22,448 bases of DNA from a virus, in the IMG/VR virus record IMGVR_UViG_3300043775_002303, positions 1 through 22,448 of that record; one strand, written 5' to 3'. The stretch's first letter is position 1, and every line of letters begins with the position of its first letter. A model generated the notes under the pieces. That model saw only the letters and a list, made by a program, of their open reading frames with translations, was not told where the DNA came from and searched no databases. Of the stretch, positions 2,860-22,225 are shown one piece after another. Position numbers and translations under genes: made by a program.

Positions 2860-2934
2860 TGGTGCGCCAAGCAGGATTCGAACCTACAACCCAGTTCTTA
2901 TGAGGAACGCGCTCTACCTTTGAGCTACAGGCGC
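2860..2934 (-). tRNA. tRNA with CAU anticodon (Ile2 or elongator Met), encoded CCA
   Basis: A full cloverleaf is visible on the minus strand. Acceptor GCGCCTG pairs with TTGGCGC (one T-T mismatch and one G-T pair), the D stem is GCTC/GAGC, the anticodon loop is CTCATAA, and the T arm is GTAGG-TTCGAAT-CCTGC. It ends with discriminator A and an encoded CCA (2862-2860). The anticodon is CAU. It lacks the three G-C pairs of initiator tRNA next to the anticodon loop. Positions 4-69 and 5-68 are C-G pairs, which in E. coli favour lysidine modification by TilS (tRNA-Ile2, reading AUA) over tRNA-Met. That assignment is an inference. Confidence 0.9.
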
Positions 2935-6708: not shown

Positions 6709-7410
6709 TCATTCTAAACCGCCTAATTTTTTGGATAAGGCATTGCGTTTGGCACCGTGAGCGGTAAACGCAATAATTATTTTTTTCTCGACTCTATCCT
6801 TTGCGCATAACATACAGTTAGCGCATTGGATAGAGTCTTTATATTCAGCTGGACAGCGAACAATCGTCAAGTCTTCGTGTTTGATGACTTTATTAATTGA
6901 ACCCGTAGGTAAAACTATCACGGCATTTAAGCCGAGATTTAAGGCTTGCGCAGCCTTGTTTGTGTCTTCACAACTAATATTTATATGCAAGCCTTTTGAG
7001 AATGCTAACTTCAACGCGCTAACATTCAAACTATTATCGATTGAATGATGGGTATATAAAATCGTTTCAATCATACGATTTTTCACTGTATTAGCCAGTT
7101 TTAAGAGTTTTACAGCGTCAATCGTGCCATCTAGGTGTGCAAGGTCGCCAACCACGTTAAAGCGCAGTTTGCTACGTTTTCGCATTGCGTCAACGTAATT
7201 CATGACCTGCGCATAGGTTAGACCGCTTAAGTCTAATTTGCGCCAGTGAATACCAGTGAATGACATTTTCCCATAACATTCATTGAATAATGCACAGTCA
7301 TCAGGACAACTAGGGCTTGACGTTGATACCGCTGCCATATCTCCTAATTTACGATTTAAAGAATGTGAAGTAAAAGAGTAAAACAATTCTAAGCTTTTTA
7401 AAAAATCCAT
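6709..7410 (-). CDS. Cys-rich phage protein resembling DUF7227/gp88-like families
   Basis: The 233-aa protein has two cysteine clusters: SPSCPDDCALFNECYG (C35, C39, C45) near the N-terminus and CPAEYKDSIQCANCMLC (C186, C196, C199, C202) near the C-terminus, followed by IIIAFTAHGAKRN. This arrangement is typical of a widespread phage/plasmid family annotated DUF7227 or gene-product-88-like. The cysteines suggest an Fe-S cluster or zinc, and an enzymatic role is possible but undetermined. The middle has alternating strand/helix segments (RFNVVGDLAH, HINISCEDT, NAVIVLPTG), consistent with a TIM-barrel-like fold. It follows the LPD29-like gene by 29 bp with an AAGGTAG site before the ATG. Confidence 0.65.
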   Translation of the reverse strand: MDFLKSLELFYSFTSHSLNRKLGDMAAVSTSSPSCPDDCALFNECYGKMSFTGIHWRKLDLSGLTYAQVMNYVDAMRKRSKLRFNVVGDLAHLDGTIDAVKLLKLANTVKNRMIETILYTHHSIDNSLNVSALKLAFSKGLHINISCEDTNKAAQALNLGLNAVIVLPTGSINKVIKHEDLTIVRCPAEYKDSIQCANCMLCAKDRVEKKIIIAFTAHGAKRNALSKKLGGLE

Positions 7411-7814: not shown

Positions 7815-7824
7815 AATGACCACC

Positions 7825-7923
7825 TTAGATATTAATTAAAAATAAAACTACCGCACTACTCATGAGTGCAATTAAACTTGTACCAGTAACATAAAATAAA
7901 CCTAACATAAATTTATCTAACAT
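7825..7923 (-). CDS. 32-aa single-pass membrane peptide
   Basis: AGGCGG lies 6 bp before ATG 7923. The peptide begins MLDKFMLGLFYVTGTSLIAL and is almost wholly hydrophobic, one membrane span. Its stop precedes the ribosome binding site of the LPD29-like gene, so it is the first gene of that operon. It has no recognised family; its good ribosome binding site and spacing make it credible despite its size. Confidence 0.55.
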   Translation of the reverse strand: MLDKFMLGLFYVTGTSLIALMSSAVVLFLINI

Positions 7924-7967
7924 ATAAACCGCCTAAAAAAAGAAAAGAAAAATAAAAAAGTTAACGT

Positions 7968-8017
7968 ATTTTAATCTTTTTTGCTTTCTTATCAAATTAA
8001 TTTTACTTTATTATCAA
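7968..8017 (-). promoter_or_regulatory. Accessory-operon promoter with two operator-like copies
   Basis: On the minus strand TTGATA (7995-7990) and TAAAAT (7973-7968) have a 16-bp spacer and point into the membrane-peptide gene. Two 16-bp operator-like copies occur here: TTGATAAGAAAGCAAA (7995-7980), lying on the -35 box, and TTGATAATAAAGTAAA (8017-8002), 22 bp upstream. Confidence 0.6.
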
Positions 8018-8056
8018 AATAAAAACATTTATCTAACAAAAACAACAAGTTAAAAT

Positions 8057-8081
8057 ACGCGCGTCATCTTGTCGCGCGTCA
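8057..8081. repeat. Short GC-rich direct repeat
   Basis: GCGCGTCAT occurs twice in close succession, within an otherwise AT-rich stretch. It marks the left end of the gene-free region. No function can be read from it. Confidence 0.4.
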
Positions 8082-8155
8082 TGCCACGCGGCTTTTATGC
8101 GGTATACTTTACCAGTCACATGATTTTTTATTGCTTGCATATATAGAATAAAAAA

Positions 8156-8234
8156 CGTTCTTTAAAAATTTACAGCTAAACACTTTCAAGTAATCAGGTT
8201 CGCAGTTAATCAGGTTTGCAGCATTGTTACTTGA
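8156..8234 (+). repeat. BoxA-like sequence, tandem repeat and flanking inverted repeat
   Basis: GTTCTTTAAAAATT (from 8157) resembles the boxA antitermination element. Downstream, TCAAGTAA (8186-8193) and TTACTTGA (8227-8234) form an 8-bp inverted repeat around two 15-bp repeats, TAATCAGGTTCGCAG (8191-8205) and TAATCAGGTTTGCAG (8207-8221). No gene is present. It could be the 5' part of a non-coding transcript ending at the 8366-8404 hairpin. Confidence 0.4.
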
Positions 8235-8365
8235 TAAGTCAACTAGTCTATTAAACAGACGTTAAACCACTATAGAATTCAATCACTTATAAAACCATAC
8301 AGTTTATAAGGTTAGATAATTGTATATAAATCAGTAACTTAGAAAAACCCTAATCTCAAAATGGT

Positions 8366-8404
8366 ATAAATCCACTACTTTTCAAGTGGTATTTATCACT
8401 TTTT
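8366..8404 (+). terminator. Possible terminator in gene-free region
   Basis: ATAAATCCACT (8366-8376) pairs with AGTGG-T-ATTTAT (8385-8396) as an 11-bp stem with one bulged T. A T-rich run (CACTTTTTT) follows. No gene lies upstream on this strand, so it hints at a small RNA or stray transcription. Confidence 0.4.
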
Positions 8405-8548
8405 TCACTCTGAGACCAATACGCTCAAATTTACCCGCTATGCCCCGTTCAGGTCTTGAGGAATACTACGACCACACCCAGAGCCTGAAATCGTCTCCTA
8501 GACCCCTTAGAATTCAATTTTAGGGTATGATTTCACAAAAAGCTCGTT

Positions 8549-8916
8549 AGCCTGTAAAATTTTTCATGGTCAATTCAATTTTGAACTTCATCCCACAAAA
8601 CTGGAAGGCGTATTTTTAGCCACAGGTGACACAGGATACAGCTCCTTCTTCAGCTCCTGTGGCTCAGGGACGGTCACGCAGCTCCTCCTTGTGACACATC
8701 AGGTCACAGGGTAAAATCAACAGCCAATCCAAAATCCTCTCAGAATTGACCCACAGTGGTCTTTTGTGTCACAAGTAATACCAATGTAGCACTCAATCCC
8801 TCCTCGTGCCTTCAGCACACCTTAAAATCAAAATTATGACCCTTTTTTCACATTACCCCACTAGCCCATAAAATTATTTTGCACAAATTGGATTTTGAAC
8901 CTCATTTGGCAAAACT
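8549..8916. repeat. Diverged 54-bp direct repeat pair
   Basis: Segments 8549-8602 and 8863-8916 align without gaps at roughly 70% by eye, sharing AATT..ATTTTGAACYTCAT and CAAAACT blocks. They suggest an old duplication with a 314-bp period inside the gene-free region. Confidence 0.3.
8618..8775. repeat. Cluster of short repeats (GTGACACA and CAGCTCCT)
   Basis: GTGACACA occurs at 8626-8633 and 8691-8698 and inverted at 8765-8772. CTTGTGACACA (8688-8698) and TGTGTCACAAG (8765-8775) are an exact 11-bp inverted pair. CAGCTCCT occurs three times (8639, 8651, 8679). AGCCACAGG (8618-8626) and CCTGTGGCT (8656-8664) form a 9-bp inverted repeat. The density suggests protein-binding iterons of the origin/control region. 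Confidence 0.5.
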
Positions 8917-8956
8917 CACATCCAAAAAATCATCAAATAATAACCCTAAAAACTTT

Positions 8957-9370
8957 ATTGGTACCAATGGTACCTATTTGGTACCAACCCTCAAACCCGC
9001 GTCATTGCTGGATTCTTGTTTTCAAATAATAACCATAAAAAAAATGTTGGTACCAAGAATTTTGAATAACCTACTAAGTTGTGTGGTTATTTTGTTGTCA
9101 AAAAGTCGAAAAAGTGCCAAAAAAGCCGATTTTGTATATTGGATGCTGATGTGATGTAAGTTATTGATTTTTAAGAAGAAAAAAAGCTTTATTATAATAT
9201 ATATATTTTTAAGTTTATAAAATTATACCTTTTTTATTTTATTGTCAAAATCCTAGTTGGTACCAACAAATCACTACCTTGGTACCAAGGTCAAACCCTT
9301 ATATTTACTGGCTTTGAGTGTGGTACCAAGTTGGTACCAAAGACATTTCTTGGTACCAAGTTGGTACCAA
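8957..9370. other. Candidate replication origin: TTGGTACCAA palindrome array around an AT-rich element
   Basis: Eight exact copies of the 10-bp palindrome TTGGTACCAA lie at 8958, 8978, 9047, 9257, 9279, 9331, 9350 and 9361, with near copies at 8968 and 9321. They form two clusters. Neighbouring centres are spaced 9-11, 19-22 or about 41 bp, near multiples of a helical turn, and the clusters are 210 bp apart (20 turns). Between them 9161-9243 is about 10% GC, like a DNA unwinding element. A leftward TTGACA/TATAAT pair (9248-9222, 15-bp spacer) flanks it. Replication genes start 130 bp downstream. Origin function is inferred; a centromere or operator array is the alternative. Confidence 0.6.
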
Positions 9371-9432
9371 CTTAACTTTCCCCCTCTAGGAATAACATAA
9401 AAAAAATAAATTTTTTTACAACAACATCAAAA

Positions 9433-9471
9433 TCAACTCATGTTGACTAATGTTGATAAATATGCTAACCT
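9433..9471 (+). promoter_or_regulatory. Promoter and palindrome for the replication operon
   Basis: TTGACT (9443-9448) and TAACCT (9466-9471) are 17 bp apart. The palindrome TCAAC-TCAT-GTTGA (9433-9446) overlaps the -35 box, and ATGTTGA is repeated at 9440 and 9450. This suggests an operator controlling the rightward early genes that begin at 9499. Confidence 0.55.
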
Positions 9472-9498
9472 AATATTTTACTTACTTCGGGAACCATC

Positions 9499-9714
9499 AT
9501 GTCTACAGAAACTAAGCGTCACATGGTCAGATTATCATCTGATTCATGCATAAAAATCACAGAAATATCAAATAAATTTTTTGCAGGGATTACCAATCAC
9601 ACAAAAATGTGTGAACAATCCATCAATCTCCTTCATGATTTATTATCTCACCCAACTGTGAAACTGGAATACTCTGTGGAAGAAAAACAATTTAAAGTTA
9701 AAGAGGTCAAATAA
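9499..9714 (+). CDS. Small protein, possible ribbon-helix-helix DNA-binding
   Basis: The 71-aa product has a strand-helix-helix pattern: TKRHMVRLS (5-13), SDSCIKITEISNKFF (14-28) and HTKMCEQSINLLHDLLSH (about 34-51), as in ribbon-helix-helix (CopG/Arc-type) proteins. A basic N-terminal strand followed by two amphipathic helices is the key resemblance; no specific family is certain. CGGGA precedes the ATG. It is the first rightward gene after the palindrome array, with the next gene starting at the base after its stop, so autoregulation or origin binding is plausible. Confidence 0.7.
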   Translation: MSTETKRHMVRLSSDSCIKITEISNKFFAGITNHTKMCEQSINLLHDLLSHPTVKLEYSVEEKQFKVKEVK

Positions 9715-9900
9715 ATGAATACTATAAAACTATCATTTACCCCAGACACAGGAGCGCAAAGCCTTGATATTGATGTGAGCTATAGACTCGCTTTCAACTT
9801 CCTAAGACTGTGCATTCTAATGAACAAAGAACCAATTGAGATATTAGACATCTGTATGTCTGAATGTATAAAAGCTAACAATTCAAAACGTAAGGACTAA
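9715..9900 (+). CDS. Hypothetical 61-aa protein
   Basis: It starts at the base following the previous stop (TAAATG) with AGAGG upstream. The protein has a short beta N-terminus (TIKLSFTPD) and two hydrophobic helices (YRLAFNFLRLCILM and PIEILDICMSECIKA) ending in a basic tail (NNSKRKD). A distant ribbon-helix-helix relation to its neighbours is possible but weak. Operon position implies a role in early control or replication. Confidence 0.6.
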   Translation: MNTIKLSFTPDTGAQSLDIDVSYRLAFNFLRLCILMNKEPIEILDICMSECIKANNSKRKD

Positions 9901-9902
9901 CC

Positions 9903-10766
9903 ATGTCAACTAAAACCCAATTAAAATTCAGCACAACCCAAGATATTGTGGATAAGTTTGATAGCTTACACGCACTATTGCCCACAGAAACTAAAGTCAA
10001 AACCTTTGAATGGTTAATCCAAATTGGTTATGAGAAATATGAATCTATGGATATCATCTCCAACAATGTGGTCGTAAATCAACTTAATGACATCAAGAAT
10101 GTGTCCGATAAAGTCCTCGAAGCAGTCACAGAAATACTCAATAAACTTTCTCCAGCAGAGGTAGAATCAATTCTTATGTCCGAACCTATACAACCACAAG
10201 GGGAAGAAATTTCAGAGCCTTCTACACCCCTTTCTGTTGAAATTTCAAATACACCAAAAATATCAGATAAAATCTTAAAATATAAAGAACTATCTCTTGA
10301 CACAGCTATCGTCAAAATCTGTGGTCATAATTACATTGCATTCAATGCAATACCTGAACTTGACTTAAAATCTAAATACTCGGATTCCGAGTTACTTGAA
10401 CTCAGAGCTAAACTCAACGCTCATGTGGCTGATTACTCACTTGAATTAACCGAGCTTTTATCCACCTACATTTCTGACCAACGACTTATAGAACTATTTA
10501 TGCCTATCAATGGCATGGCATTAAGTCGATATTTATCCCTCCGTTTCACAAAGATGGGTATATCAAATGAACAAATAAACCACTCCATGTGGTCATATAC
10601 ACTTTCTGAATTAAATGAAATATTAGCCACAATACCTAAATACACAGCCGTTAATGGCAAAATTGATATTTCCTCACCTCAAATGTGTCTAAGAGTCGCA
10701 TTGCAAACAGCTTATAGTGCTTTATTTATGTATAAAGCAGAAGGTTATACTTTTACAACAATATAA
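9903..10766 (+). CDS. Replication-operon protein with N-terminal RHH-like domain
   Basis: The 287-aa product begins with a strand-helix-helix unit (TQLKFSTT, QDIVDKFDSLHALLP and KVKTFEWLIQIGYEKYE, residues 5-46) resembling ribbon-helix-helix DNA-binding domains. A helical stretch (55-92), a polar Pro/Ser/Glu linker (93-120) and a mainly helical C-terminal domain (121-287) follow. I recognise no family for the C-terminal part. It lies 2 bp after the previous gene and 11 bp before the primase-helicase gene, so it may be the origin-binding or helicase-loading partner and could read the TTGGTACCAA palindromes. That is inference from position and fold only. Confidence 0.65.
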   Translation: MSTKTQLKFSTTQDIVDKFDSLHALLPTETKVKTFEWLIQIGYEKYESMDIISNNVVVNQLNDIKNVSDKVLEAVTEILNKLSPAEVESILMSEPIQPQGEEISEPSTPLSVEISNTPKISDKILKYKELSLDTAIVKICGHNYIAFNAIPELDLKSKYSDSELLELRAKLNAHVADYSLELTELLSTYISDQRLIELFMPINGMALSRYLSLRFTKMGISNEQINHSMWSYTLSELNEILATIPKYTAVNGKIDISSPQMCLRVALQTAYSALFMYKAEGYTFTTI

Positions 10767-10777
10767 GGATTTAAAAA

Positions 10778-13291
10778 ATGGAAAATAGAATTCGCAATTA
10801 TAATTTAATACCCGATGAATTAAAGAGAGAAAACATCTGGTTAATTGCTGCTGATGTAGATGGTAATATAGGGGGTAAAATCCCTCATACCTTAACTAAT
10901 CAAGATAAACTTGTTAAATGTAATATCAACATAAAGTCTCATCTCATGCCTTTTAGTGTGGCATTTTCATTTGCTGATGCACATGGATATGATATTGGTG
11001 CTGTGATGAATACTGACCATCACTTTGGTGTAATTGATTTAGATATTAAAGATTTCACAACTAAAGAATCTATTGAGATGATGCATGAAATCATTAGTAA
11101 ATTTGATTCCTACACTGAACTTTCAACGTATGGAATGGGATATCACATCATCTTTAAAACTGATGAATTTATTTCTCGTAGGTCATCTAAATACAAAATA
11201 GAAGCCTATTCCTTCAGACGATTCATCGTAGTCACAGGTAATATCGTCACACCTGTGGCAAAGGCATTACCTGATGGCACAATGGATTACAGCATTGAGC
11301 GCACATTTGAGAAAATAAATGATACCGACTTACGGGTATCCGAGATTGAAAAATTCGCAAAGCGAATTGAATATCGCAATGAAGCATTACTTGCATTAGT
11401 CGATAAACTTGGCTTACAGGCTGACCCTGAATTTGACTTTGTGTTAAAGGAAGTTGAATCAGACCTCACTGATGATGAAGTAATTGATTGGATTCTCGAT
11501 TCACCTTGGTGTGATAAGTATCTCGAACTGAGTCTCATTACTGAAAGTACGGATTTAGTAAGTTTTAATTATCCATCTTTATCCGAAGTAGACTTAGCCT
11601 TAATCTGTATTTTAGGTCGGGCAACACCCTCTGACTCACAAGTTAGAAGAATATTCCGCACAACACCTGTGGGACAGAGAGCAAAGCATCAAGGTACCAA
11701 TTACCGTATTGATAGATGTTTAATTAAGATTCGTGATGAACTTGATTTAACGAGCATGACCGAATTATTTGATAGCATTATTGATAGCTATTTTAAGACG
11801 ACTAATGACAGAATTACAGCAGAACTTGATTACGCTAAAAGTAAACGTGATGCAGCTATCGAAAACAACATGGATGTGGATGATTTAAAATATGATTTTG
11901 ATGCGGATGAACTTGAGTTTTTTGCTGAAGAGGATTTATTTAAAACGGACATACCTTTCCCACATGGTTTAATCGGGGATATTTCAAAATACATTTACAA
12001 TGCATCACCCTATAAACTTAAAGAAGCCGCGATTGGTGCATCACTAGCATTGATATCCGGTATCTGTGGTCGTCAATGGAACTTCAATGGCGCAGGTCTT
12101 AATAATTATTTTGTTATCCTCGCAGCGTCAGGTCTTGGCAAAGAAAGCGTTTCACGCTCACTTGGTGTGATTGTAAATGCGATTGCAAAAGTTAATGGTG
12201 ATGAATTCGTATGTTTTGATAGATTATCATCTGGACAAGCATTTAAATCAGTTATTACATCATCGCCTTATCACTCAATACTTGTTGTGATGCCTGAATT
12301 CGCAAGACTCGTAGACGCATTAAAGAATAAAAATGATGCCGCTATGTCTGGCTTATATAACGAGTTACTCGATGCTCACAGTAAATCAGCACCTAAATCA
12401 ACCTACGGAGGTAGTCGTCATGCGGATACCGCAAATAACCGCACAGGTGTAACTGGAGCTGCTATAAGTCTTATTGGTGATTGCACACTTGATTACTATG
12501 AAGGTATTACAGAATCAATGGCTAAGAGTGGTTTTATCTCACGATTTGTTTTAATTGAGCGATATTCAACGCACAAAGGGATGTCAGATAAGTGTGCGCA
12601 CTTAACCCAACTTGACCAGAACATTGTGACTGATTTATGTGACCTCGTTATCCAAGCTAAATTAAATCACGAACAGGAACACGTTGAGCAAGTTGTTCCT
12701 GCTAATAAACAAGTAGAACTCGCTATGCTTAATTTAGAAGTGTATATCAACATGAGATTCAATCAAGGCATTGATGAGATGCAGAGACAGCCTTTTGCTA
12801 GAGCATATTTAAAAGTCATGACCATTGCTTCGCTTTTTGCTGTGACTCGTAATCGCTATAAGCCTGAGATAACCTTGGAAGACTTTGAATGGGCAAAAGC
12901 TCTCGTGCTTCGTGATTGCTTTAATCTAATCAAGCGCATTAAAGAAGGCACGATTGGTATTGGTGAAAATAACTGTAAAAAACGCACCACAACATTAATC
13001 AAACGATTAATTGACCCGAATGAACCTCGTGATAAGGTTTCAAAAGAATGGGCATATTTACTCGATAACGGTGTTGTACCTAAGAGTTTACTCGCGAAGA
13101 AGCTCAATAACGATACTTATCGTATCGGACACATGAGCAATACCGCAACACTCAATGTGATACTCAAAGAGATGGTTGAAACGGGTGATTTAATACCTTT
13201 TAATGAAGCCATACGCCTTGAGAAACATATCGTACCACCTGTGGGCAAGACTAAGATGTTTTCTGGCGTAGCCTACCTTGTTTGTTTTTAA
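10778..13291 (+). CDS. Primase-polymerase / helicase fusion (AEP domain plus DUF3987-like ATPase)
   Basis: The 837-aa protein joins two replication activities. Residues about 10-160 form an archaeo-eukaryotic-primase (Prim-Pol) domain with catalytic GVIDLDIKD (D87, D89), STYGMGYHIIF (S116, H123) and YSFRRFIVVTGN. Residues 270-320 form a helical linker (VDLALICILGRATPSDSQVRRIFR) seen in phage primase-helicases. Residues 390-640 form a DUF3987-type P-loop ATPase with variant Walker A ASGLGKES (450-457) and ILVVMPEFARL as likely Walker B (E507). A C-terminal helical region follows. AAGGA precedes ATG 10778. It probably primes and unwinds DNA at the adjacent origin. The domain calls are strong; polymerase activity is unknown. 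Confidence 0.85.
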   Translation: MENRIRNYNLIPDELKRENIWLIAADVDGNIGGKIPHTLTNQDKLVKCNINIKSHLMPFSVAFSFADAHGYDIGAVMNTDHHFGVIDLDIKDFTTKESIEMMHEIISKFDSYTELSTYGMGYHIIFKTDEFISRRSSKYKIEAYSFRRFIVVTGNIVTPVAKALPDGTMDYSIERTFEKINDTDLRVSEIEKFAKRIEYRNEALLALVDKLGLQADPEFDFVLKEVESDLTDDEVIDWILDSPWCDKYLELSLITESTDLVSFNYPSLSEVDLALICILGRATPSDSQVRRIFRTTPVGQRAKHQGTNYRIDRCLIKIRDELDLTSMTELFDSIIDSYFKTTNDRITAELDYAKSKRDAAIENNMDVDDLKYDFDADELEFFAEEDLFKTDIPFPHGLIGDISKYIYNASPYKLKEAAIGASLALISGICGRQWNFNGAGLNNYFVILAASGLGKESVSRSLGVIVNAIAKVNGDEFVCFDRLSSGQAFKSVITSSPYHSILVVMPEFARLVDALKNKNDAAMSGLYNELLDAHSKSAPKSTYGGSRHADTANNRTGVTGAAISLIGDCTLDYYEGITESMAKSGFISRFVLIERYSTHKGMSDKCAHLTQLDQNIVTDLCDLVIQAKLNHEQEHVEQVVPANKQVELAMLNLEVYINMRFNQGIDEMQRQPFARAYLKVMTIASLFAVTRNRYKPEITLEDFEWAKALVLRDCFNLIKRIKEGTIGIGENNCKKRTTTLIKRLIDPNEPRDKVSKEWAYLLDNGVVPKSLLAKKLNNDTYRIGHMSNTATLNVILKEMVETGDLIPFNEAIRLEKHIVPPVGKTKMFSGVAYLVCF

Positions 13292-20207: not shown

Positions 20208-20311
20208 CTCAACAACAAGTAAATAAAATAATGGATAGAATTATGCTAGAGCTTGTGGCAATTTTATTCCCTATCGTAACTTTAATGTTTTTTGCAGGAC
20301 TCTATGTATGA
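20204..20311 (+). CDS. 35-aa membrane peptide
   Basis: ATGA overlaps at both ends. MTQQQVNKIMDRIMLELVAI is followed by more hydrophobic residues (LFPIVTLMFFAGLYV), one membrane span. It is the fifth tiny membrane peptide in the window. Confidence 0.5.
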   Translation: MTQQQVNKIMDRIMLELVAILFPIVTLMFFAGLYV

Positions 20312-20631
20312 ACGAAATTAAATATAGTACAAAACCAAATGGCACAATGACAATGCAAGATGCATCAGATGAATTTGGAATTGAACAAATGACCCTTCGT
20401 GGACGATTAATTAAACACAAAGTACCTTCTGTGGGTATCTTAGAAACAAATAGAAATAGATTGTTTAGACGTGAAGACATTCTTCCGTTTGTTGTGTCAA
20501 CTGAAGCCTATTTGGATAAATTTCCAAGAAAAAGAAAGCCAAGAAAGATTTTACAGGTTGAAGAACATCCATTCTTCACATCACTTTACTTAGACTTTAT
20601 TGCGGGGAGACACAATGCAGTTAATATCTAA
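20308..20631 (+). CDS. Small HTH protein, excisionase/MerR-like
   Basis: The 107-aa product contains MTMQDASDEFGIEQMTLRGR through LFRREDILPFV (about residues 14-62), a helix-turn-helix with a wing similar to MerR/excisionase-like phage proteins. A basic segment (FPRKRKPRKI) follows. It probably binds DNA, perhaps as a regulator of the early promoters. The specific family is not certain. ATGA overlap upstream; the next gene starts inside its 3' end. Confidence 0.6.
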   Translation: MNEIKYSTKPNGTMTMQDASDEFGIEQMTLRGRLIKHKVPSVGILETNRNRLFRREDILPFVVSTEAYLDKFPRKRKPRKILQVEEHPFFTSLYLDFIAGRHNAVNI

Positions 20632-20810: not shown

Positions 20811-20834
20811 AGCATTTTTATATGGAGAATGGAA

Positions 20835-21041
20835 ATGACCCAAGATGAATTTGAATCGCTGTTTATCAGCAAGAATGCAATATGTGCGCGACTAAATAAA
20901 TCATGTAATTATTTAGACCATCACATTGAAAGCAAAGCGTTTCCACGCGCATTAGAGCTTAAAAGTGGAAAGAATAAGGTATTTAAACTGTATTATCGCG
21001 ATGACATACGTCATCATGACTTAGTTAAGGGAGTTGTGTAA
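20835..21041 (+). CDS. Small DNA-binding-like (HTH) protein
   Basis: ATG 20835 is preferred over ATG 20829 because GGAG (20824-20827) gives a normal spacing. The 68-aa product contains ISKNAICARLNKSCNYLDHH followed by IESKAFPRALEL and YYRDDIRHHDL, the layout of AlpA/excisionase-like winged HTH proteins. It is coupled to the next gene (TAATG). A regulatory role is likely but unproven. Confidence 0.6.
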   Translation: MTQDEFESLFISKNAICARLNKSCNYLDHHIESKAFPRALELKSGKNKVFKLYYRDDIRHHDLVKGVV

Positions 21042-21382: not shown

Positions 21383-22225
21383 ATGAGTTTTTTAAGCAGA
21401 GCATTAACAACAGAATCAAAACAAGAAGGTCTTCGCCTTATCGCGGCTGGTATTGAAGGTATTGGTAAAACAACACTTCTCGCATCAGCACCTAAACCTG
21501 TATTCATTGCTTTAGAAAAAGGCTATGTGGATGTGGATAGAGAAAAAGTAGCCATTATCCCTATGCATGATGCAAGTTACACAGATTTAATTGAATTATT
21601 TGGTGAGTTATCTGAACTAGTGATGGCTGGTACATTTGAATATCAATCTATTGTTGTGGATTCATTATCAGCTCTTGAGCGTATTATCCACACACACGTC
21701 ATTGCTCTTGACCCTGTGTCAAGAACTAATCCTAAACTCACTATGTTATCAGCACATAATGGCTATGGTAATGCATATAATGTATCCAATACTATCTGGC
21801 AAGACACTTTAAAATGGTTAGATTTCTTTGCTGATAACGGTATTAACATTTGCTGTTCTTGCCATGTATTTACTAACCTAGAGCGCGATACGATTAGCGC
21901 AACAGAATTTCATTTTACTGATGCATTATTGCACTCACCCAAATCATCAAAATCATTTGGTTCTCGTGAACTTGTGACACAATGGTGCGATATTTTTGGA
22001 ATGCTTTATACCTCCAAAACACCTGTGGGTATGGGTAGTGGTATGAATACTGCGGATATTGATAGAGAACAAGGTGTCACACTAGGTGTGGTACAGAACG
22101 CAAGATTTCGTTCAAAGAATCGTTTTGGTCTTGAGCGTGATATTACAATCACAAAAAATGATGGTTGGAATTGTATTGCTCAAGCCATCTTTGATGCTAA
22201 AGGCAGTGATTATTTTTCAAAATGA
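21383..22225 (+). CDS. RecA-fold ATPase, Sak4-like phage recombination protein
   Basis: The 280-aa product has Walker A GIEGIGKT (23-30; K29, T30) and Walker B QSIVVDSLSAL (88-98, D93), with FIALEKGYVDVD between them. This is the pattern of phage AAA/RecA-like nucleotide-binding proteins of the Sak4 type. Family members assist single-strand annealing, with SSB and exonucleases usually nearby. The C-terminal half (QWCDIFGMLYTS..., FRSKNRFGLERDITI) also fits. A strong promoter with an operator-like site precedes it. Its stop overlaps the next ATG (ATGA). The role in recombination-dependent replication is inferred from family. Confidence 0.8.
   Translation: MSFLSRALTTESKQEGLRLIAAGIEGIGKTTLLASAPKPVFIALEKGYVDVDREKVAIIPMHDASYTDLIELFGELSELVMAGTFEYQSIVVDSLSALERIIHTHVIALDPVSRTNPKLTMLSAHNGYGNAYNVSNTIWQDTLKWLDFFADNGINICCSCHVFTNLERDTISATEFHFTDALLHSPKSSKSFGSRELVTQWCDIFGMLYTSKTPVGMGSGMNTADIDREQGVTLGVVQNARFRSKNRFGLERDITITKNDGWNCIAQAIFDAKGSDYFSK

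Follow-up and report, generated by a model that had tools for sequence, protein, structure and literature searches.

An array of 10-bp palindromes with origin-like anatomy ahead of a primase operon in a Queuovirinae-like phage fragment

Where a cluster of short palindromes stands ahead of a row of orphan genes and a primase gene, the question arises which protein reads the palindromes and what the reading serves. Such an arrangement is found in the viral record IMGVR_UViG_3300043775_002303, whose 22,448 bp, end repeats absent, were analysed as one stretch (hereafter the window). An earlier note had taken the three proteins encoded between palindromes and primase, here p1, p2 and p3, for ribbon-helix-helix-like (RHH-like) proteins, p2 weakly so, and for candidate origin-binding or partition-like factors.

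The portal gene and the genes for the terminase large and small subunits run leftward in the window, and a phrog_3022 primase and a Sak4-like protein are encoded rightward. The large terminase subunit is at most 56% identical to that of Queuovirinae phages (taxonomy was looked up for one of the phages matched by this subunit), the primase shares at most about 29% identity with Queuovirinae primases, and on these comparisons the window is a Queuovirinae-like phage fragment. Seuratvirus, Nonagvirus, Nipunavirus and Amoyvirus, all Queuovirinae, resemble it in having small genes in front of a phrog_3022 primase, but no relatives of p1-p3 were found in them and the array was absent from the cultured phages fetched. 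An Rfam scan of the window returned nothing besides one tRNA. A DUF7227 protein (1.9e-53), corresponding to the C-terminal part of phrog_2554, is encoded at 6709-7410, and two small proteins that look helix-turn-helix-like (HTH-like) by eye lie at 20308-20631 and 20829-21041, ahead of the Sak4 gene. The features discussed below are collected in Table 1.

Table 1. Coordinates of the palindrome clusters, repeats and genes in the window.
Feature	Position	Strand	Remarks
tRNA-Met	2860-2934		
Left cluster	8958..9056	.	TTGGTACCAA at 8958, 8978, 9047; ATGGTACCTA at 8967
AT-rich element	9164..9243	.	candidate unwinding element; 90% A+T
Right cluster	9257..9370	.	TTGGTACCAA at 9257, 9279, 9331, 9350, 9361; GTGGTACCAA at 9320
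Second weaker repeat	9433..9456	.	inverted TCAAC-TCAT-GTTGA; ATGTTGA at 9440 and 9450 (10 bp apart)
p1	9499..9714	+	71 aa orphan protein; candidate array reader
p2	9715..9900	+	61 aa orphan protein; ATG immediately after p1 stop
p3	9903..10766	+	287 aa orphan protein; predicted all-helical, low confidence
Primase/helicase	10778..13291	+	phrog_3022, 5.6e-116

The palindrome array and its origin-like anatomy

The array spans 413 bp (8958-9370) and ends about 130 bp upstream of p1, within the largest non-coding gap of the window (7824-9498, on a hand-chosen gene list). The earlier note had counted ten palindromes directly upstream of the three genes; the array is real, but eight of the ten sites are exact copies of TTGGTACCAA and the other two are the variants ATGGTACCTA and GTGGTACCAA. 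Under a second-order Markov model 0.064 exact copies would be expected against the eight observed (Poisson 6.8e-15), none was found outside the array within the 22,448-bp window, and 10 of the 11 window copies of GGTACC lie inside it. When up to two mismatches are allowed, the whole window contains 17 sites against 12.6 expected (sd 3.7), a count near chance, so that the signal of the array lies in its exact copies and their clustering, and weak copies carry no meaning. Some sites are 9-11 bp apart, the spacing being 11 bp in three site pairs of the whole array, and a 35-bp direct repeat, TCAAATAATAACC...TTGGTACCAA, is present in two copies at 8933 and 9022 (86%). Three sister contigs share all eight exact copies; the 10 distinct positions at which the sister contigs differ in 8940-9498 all avoid site bases (0/10), a sparing that is not significant, with 99 of the 559 nt being site bases and a chance probability of about 0.14.

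Exactly between the two palindrome clusters sits the AT-rich element, which ranks first in A+T among all 80-bp stretches of the window. Iteron origins of plasmids and phages combine short repeated sites with a neighbouring AT-rich stretch and replication gene, and the window is like them in its clustered repeated sites at 8958-9370, in the AT-rich element adjoining these at 9164-9243, and in the replication gene nearby. It is unlike them in that its sites are perfect palindromes instead of directional iterons, and in that the array holds no DnaA box: the exact box TTATCCACA occurs only at 9947 (-), inside p3, and at 21684 (+). We count this placement against a reading of the array as origin or operator, and also the cumulative GC-skew minimum, which falls near 10.75 kb, away from the array. 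Helical phasing at 10.5 bp gives R 0.89 for the right-hand seven sites and R 0.36 (p ~0.27) for all ten, and was left out of the argument because the ten together are at chance level. Array, AT-rich element and operon make up an origin-like anatomy, short of proof of an origin.

The second repeat, beside the start of p1, was spotted post hoc and could possibly be a separate operator, or chance. Elsewhere in the non-coding gap, at 8340-8900, there are apparent degenerate long repeats, including two TTGAAC...CAAAACT blocks (by eye).

Three orphan genes and the ribbon-helix-helix question

The consecutive genes that the earlier note had placed at 9499, 9715 and 9903 were confirmed as open reading frames on the same strand, with the primase next. 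Distinct differences between the sister contigs fall on codon position 3 in 5/5 cases for p1, 3/3 for p2 and 24/27 for p3 (sister contig L003 covers 372 nt of p3 only); against the three sister contigs neither p1 nor p2 changes in amino-acid sequence, and p3 differs by at most two residues. Since the differences are mostly at codon position 3, p1, p2 and p3 are, by this pattern, genuine genes under purifying selection as proteins. Searches for p3 in viral and genome contigs and for p1 in viral contigs returned only the three near-identical sister contigs, tblastn of p1 and p3 against cultured phages gave no relatives, and phmmer of all three proteins against 9,889 ORFs of 88 loci gave no E-value below 0.5. 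Weak matches of p3 to the families NPV_P10 (0.058), phrog_34429 (0.03) and DUF3932 (0.095), to a KtrC chain (0.04) and to an NCBIfam dehydrogenase (0.14), and of p1 to coat chains of picornaviruses (0.33 at best), were taken as chance.

The suggestion that p1-p3 are RHH-like gained nothing from family searches. Against Pfam and NCBIfam, p1-p3 and their fragments matched no RHH family at E-values up to 10, and at the same limit the RHH_1 model had no match over the window, the control being positive in 14/14 genomes. On three profiles the proteins stayed near shuffle level. An RHH_1-type profile of 31 domains, 11 of which were tested held-out, scored these held-out RHH domains at 23.8-53.4 bits (n=11), compared with -1.6 bits for p1 (128/400 shuffles equal), -1.8 bits for the N-terminus of p3 (107/400) and no score for p2 (400/400). 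The best single result, 0.5 bits for p1 with 30/400 shuffles as good, came from an Arc-like profile (22 domains), on which p3 reached -1.5 bits (313/400) and p2 had no score (400/400); on a reduced-alphabet profile of six classes, shuffles were as good in 403/500, 332/500 and 331/500 cases for p1, p2 and p3, respectively. A by-eye fit of the three proteins to the RHH consensus was dropped, and the argument built on it abandoned, because shuffled sequences fit as cheaply.

The earlier note had also read a basic strand followed by two helices into these proteins. The predictions do show a helix pair in each of the three proteins, with very low confidence, but the models of p1 and p3 (pLDDT <45) lack the leading N-terminal strand. 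AlphaFold monomer predictions without alignment placed p1 helices at 14-28 and 34-49 in a p1-G-p2 read-through chain (pLDDT 38.6), and helices at 12-23 and 28-46 in p3 (pLDDT 44.2). As is expected of an RHH protein, a repeated palindromic site stands beside the gene, a property not specific to RHH. An RHH fold for p1-p3 is possible, but unsupported by sequence.

The same palindrome and parallel arrays elsewhere

A separate precedent for an RHH gene beside this palindrome comes from unrelated bacteria. A search of genome contigs for TTGGTACCAA triplets gave six stretches, two of them before an RHH gene (L133, L135), one at a Tn7-like end (L132), one in a coding repeat (L130), and two others. 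In L133 and L135 the three sites lie just upstream of a gene whose product, 64-68 aa long, scores above the Arc (PF03869) cut-off (21.9 and 22 bits versus 20.4), and among 297 genomes of that bacterial family the array was present in 4 (query genome included), with the orthologous RHH gene adjoining in 4/4. The sites of these Arc-family loci are 38-145 bp ahead of the predicted start. Because the loci form one orthologous group, we count the pairing as one precedent, not four; the TTGGTACCAA triplet and the Arc-family gene are likely, on sequence, an operator-repressor pair. The triplet upstream of this gene is conserved in gut bacterial MAGs (L133:6460-6798, L135:888-1233, L198-L201), and in L133 an integrase gene and an HTH_17 gene are found nearby.

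These Arc-family loci are like the window in that an identical 10-bp palindrome is repeated before a small gene. They differ in having three copies 37-46 bp apart, whereas the window has ten, some of them 9-11 bp apart; the neighbours in L133 are the integrase and HTH_17 genes, and in the window the primase; and p1 shows no sequence resemblance to the RHH protein. RelB and MobC(RA3) are RHH autorepressors whose operators are palindromic or repeated, and RelB dimers bind repeats on the same face (PMC2812701, PMC4175270). Both are like the window in that a small protein adjoins the operator of its own operon, the window operator being putative, but their RHH identity is established and each has a single compact operator, whereas in the window the fold is unproven and ten sites extend over 413 bp.

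The reading of the earlier note, in which p1 and/or p3 would be divergent RHH dimers binding TTGGTACCAA directly, we consider unlikely. The nearness of the array to p1 (130 bp), the adjoining RHH gene in every array-bearing genome of that family and in L135, other repeated palindromes of 8-12 bp upstream of 3/24 relatives of the Arc-like RHH gene, and helix pairs of suitable length in the low-confidence models all speak for this reading. Against it are the empty family and RHH_1 searches, the near-shuffle scores on the three profiles, the failure of p1 to align with the TTGGTACCAA-associated Arc-like protein, and the want of any repeated palindrome in the remaining 21/24 relatives.

TTGGTACCAA is also found in other settings. 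In Paraglaciecola polaris (L132:2840-2923) four copies stand between tnsA and glmS (glmS by eye), a group that probably marks one end of a Tn7-like transposon. Pairs of TTGGTACCAA in viral contigs gave 19 stretches, 3 of which are the sisters of the window; most of the other 16 were inspected by eye, and of these none has an obvious RHH neighbour and several lie inside ORFs.

Palindrome arrays are not general in the phrog_3022 primase family, which we count against the reading as origin or operator. Among 89 primase-family loci, with the primase located in 88, four have three or more copies of an exact 8- or 10-bp palindrome within 2.5 kb upstream, namely the window, L060, L075 and L095, and a clustered array of exact palindromes was found in 2/95 whole loci (some redundant), the window and L060. 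In L060:3121-4670 another palindrome, AAGCATGCTT, occurs ten times in four groups, some within a predicted ORF, followed by small genes, an HTH-like gene and a primase about 27% identical to that of the window; in L144:1018-1160 six copies precede a phrog_3022 primase that is 66% identical to the L060 primase. Triplets of AAGCATGCTT occur in 30 viral stretches. They lie upstream of a primase in L060/L143, L144, L140, L145, L151, L152 and L154, the primase being of another type in L140, L145, L151, L152 and L154, and on the 3' side of the primase in L142 and L149. The commonest flanks are A-rich before and T-rich after. No RHH protein stood out among 148 ORFs near AAGCATGCTT arrays (best E 0.088), and AAGCATGCTT is absent from the window. 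In Rhodobacter phage RcSpartan and its copy (L039, L090), CAAGCTTG occurs ten times over ~10-12 kb, scattered and unclustered. No literature on these arrays was found among the matches listed.

A proposed control and probable replication-start region, and its possible readers

Given these observations, we tentatively suggest, at somewhat below an even chance, that 8958-9370 is a control region and probably a replication-start region, read by a dimeric protein that most likely comes from the p1-p2-p3-primase operon. A dimeric DNA-binding protein, most likely operon-made (p1 or p3), would bind the ten iteron-like palindromes of 10 bp, whose two clusters flank an AT-rich element ahead of this operon. 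Such binding could repress the operon and/or organise an origin, and an origin organised in this way would allow loading of the primase-helicase at the AT-rich element. We infer the origin function, the operator function and the identity of the reader (p1 or p3) from several lines: the exact copies far exceed expectation and are confined to the array, they stand in the largest gap of the window, on either side of its 80 bp richest in A+T, the primase is directly downstream and p1-p3 are under purifying selection, and parallel AAGCATGCTT arrays stand before the L060 and L144 primases. The TTGGTACCAA triplet before an Arc-family RHH gene provides a precedent for the palindrome as operator. The idea that p1-p3 may bind the origin, already present in the earlier note, is consistent with array and genes standing together before the primase in an origin-like setting, but its RHH identity for the binder lacks support.

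Less probable than direct RHH binding is that the array is read by the primase-helicase itself, or by the HTH-like protein at 20308 or 20829, with p1-p3 acting otherwise. Some primases do bind their own origin, for example P4 alpha. A small HTH-like gene stands directly before the primase in most of 10 related-phage loci (by eye), and in two other loci the pre-primase gene is annotated as a DNA-binding protein or an AlpA regulator; we also count on this side that the HTH-like proteins of the window are located elsewhere (by eye) and not before its primase. However, they are 11 kb distant from the array, and the array is absent from the related phages that have such HTH proteins. Less probable again is a host protein as reader, the phage having borrowed a host regulatory or replication-control site. 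The triplets of AAGCATGCTT in the 30 viral stretches lie beside primases of several unrelated families, and a word that recurs beside unrelated primases suggests that something other than the primase reads it; yet AAGCATGCTT is a different word, absent from the window. That the array is the partition (centromere-like) site of a plasmid-like prophage is very improbable: par loci do have tandem sites beside small genes, but none of the 17 window proteins compared with PHROGs gave a ParA or plasmid partition match, and the close relatives by terminase (56% identity) are Queuovirinae.

Beyond the preferred reading of 8958-9370 as a control and probable replication-start region, dense arrays of a perfect 10-bp palindrome (TTGGTACCAA here; AAGCATGCTT in L060, L144 and the L140 group) might be a recurring replication-control element before phage primase operons, with dimeric readers that, here as p1 or p3, would belong to a DNA-binding family without a described relative; we regard this wider proposal as doubtful. 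The kind of element is already known, and 10-bp palindromes may be in repeated use before phage primases. The literature searched gave no account of the way in which phages with a primase of this family select the site where replication begins. With an array around an AT-rich element, three candidate readers and, in a relative, an array of parallel layout, the question of the start site becomes testable in these phages, and the Arc-like gene paired with TTGGTACCAA in gut bacteria and the arrays of AAGCATGCTT by unrelated primases provide leads that are independent of the RHH guess.
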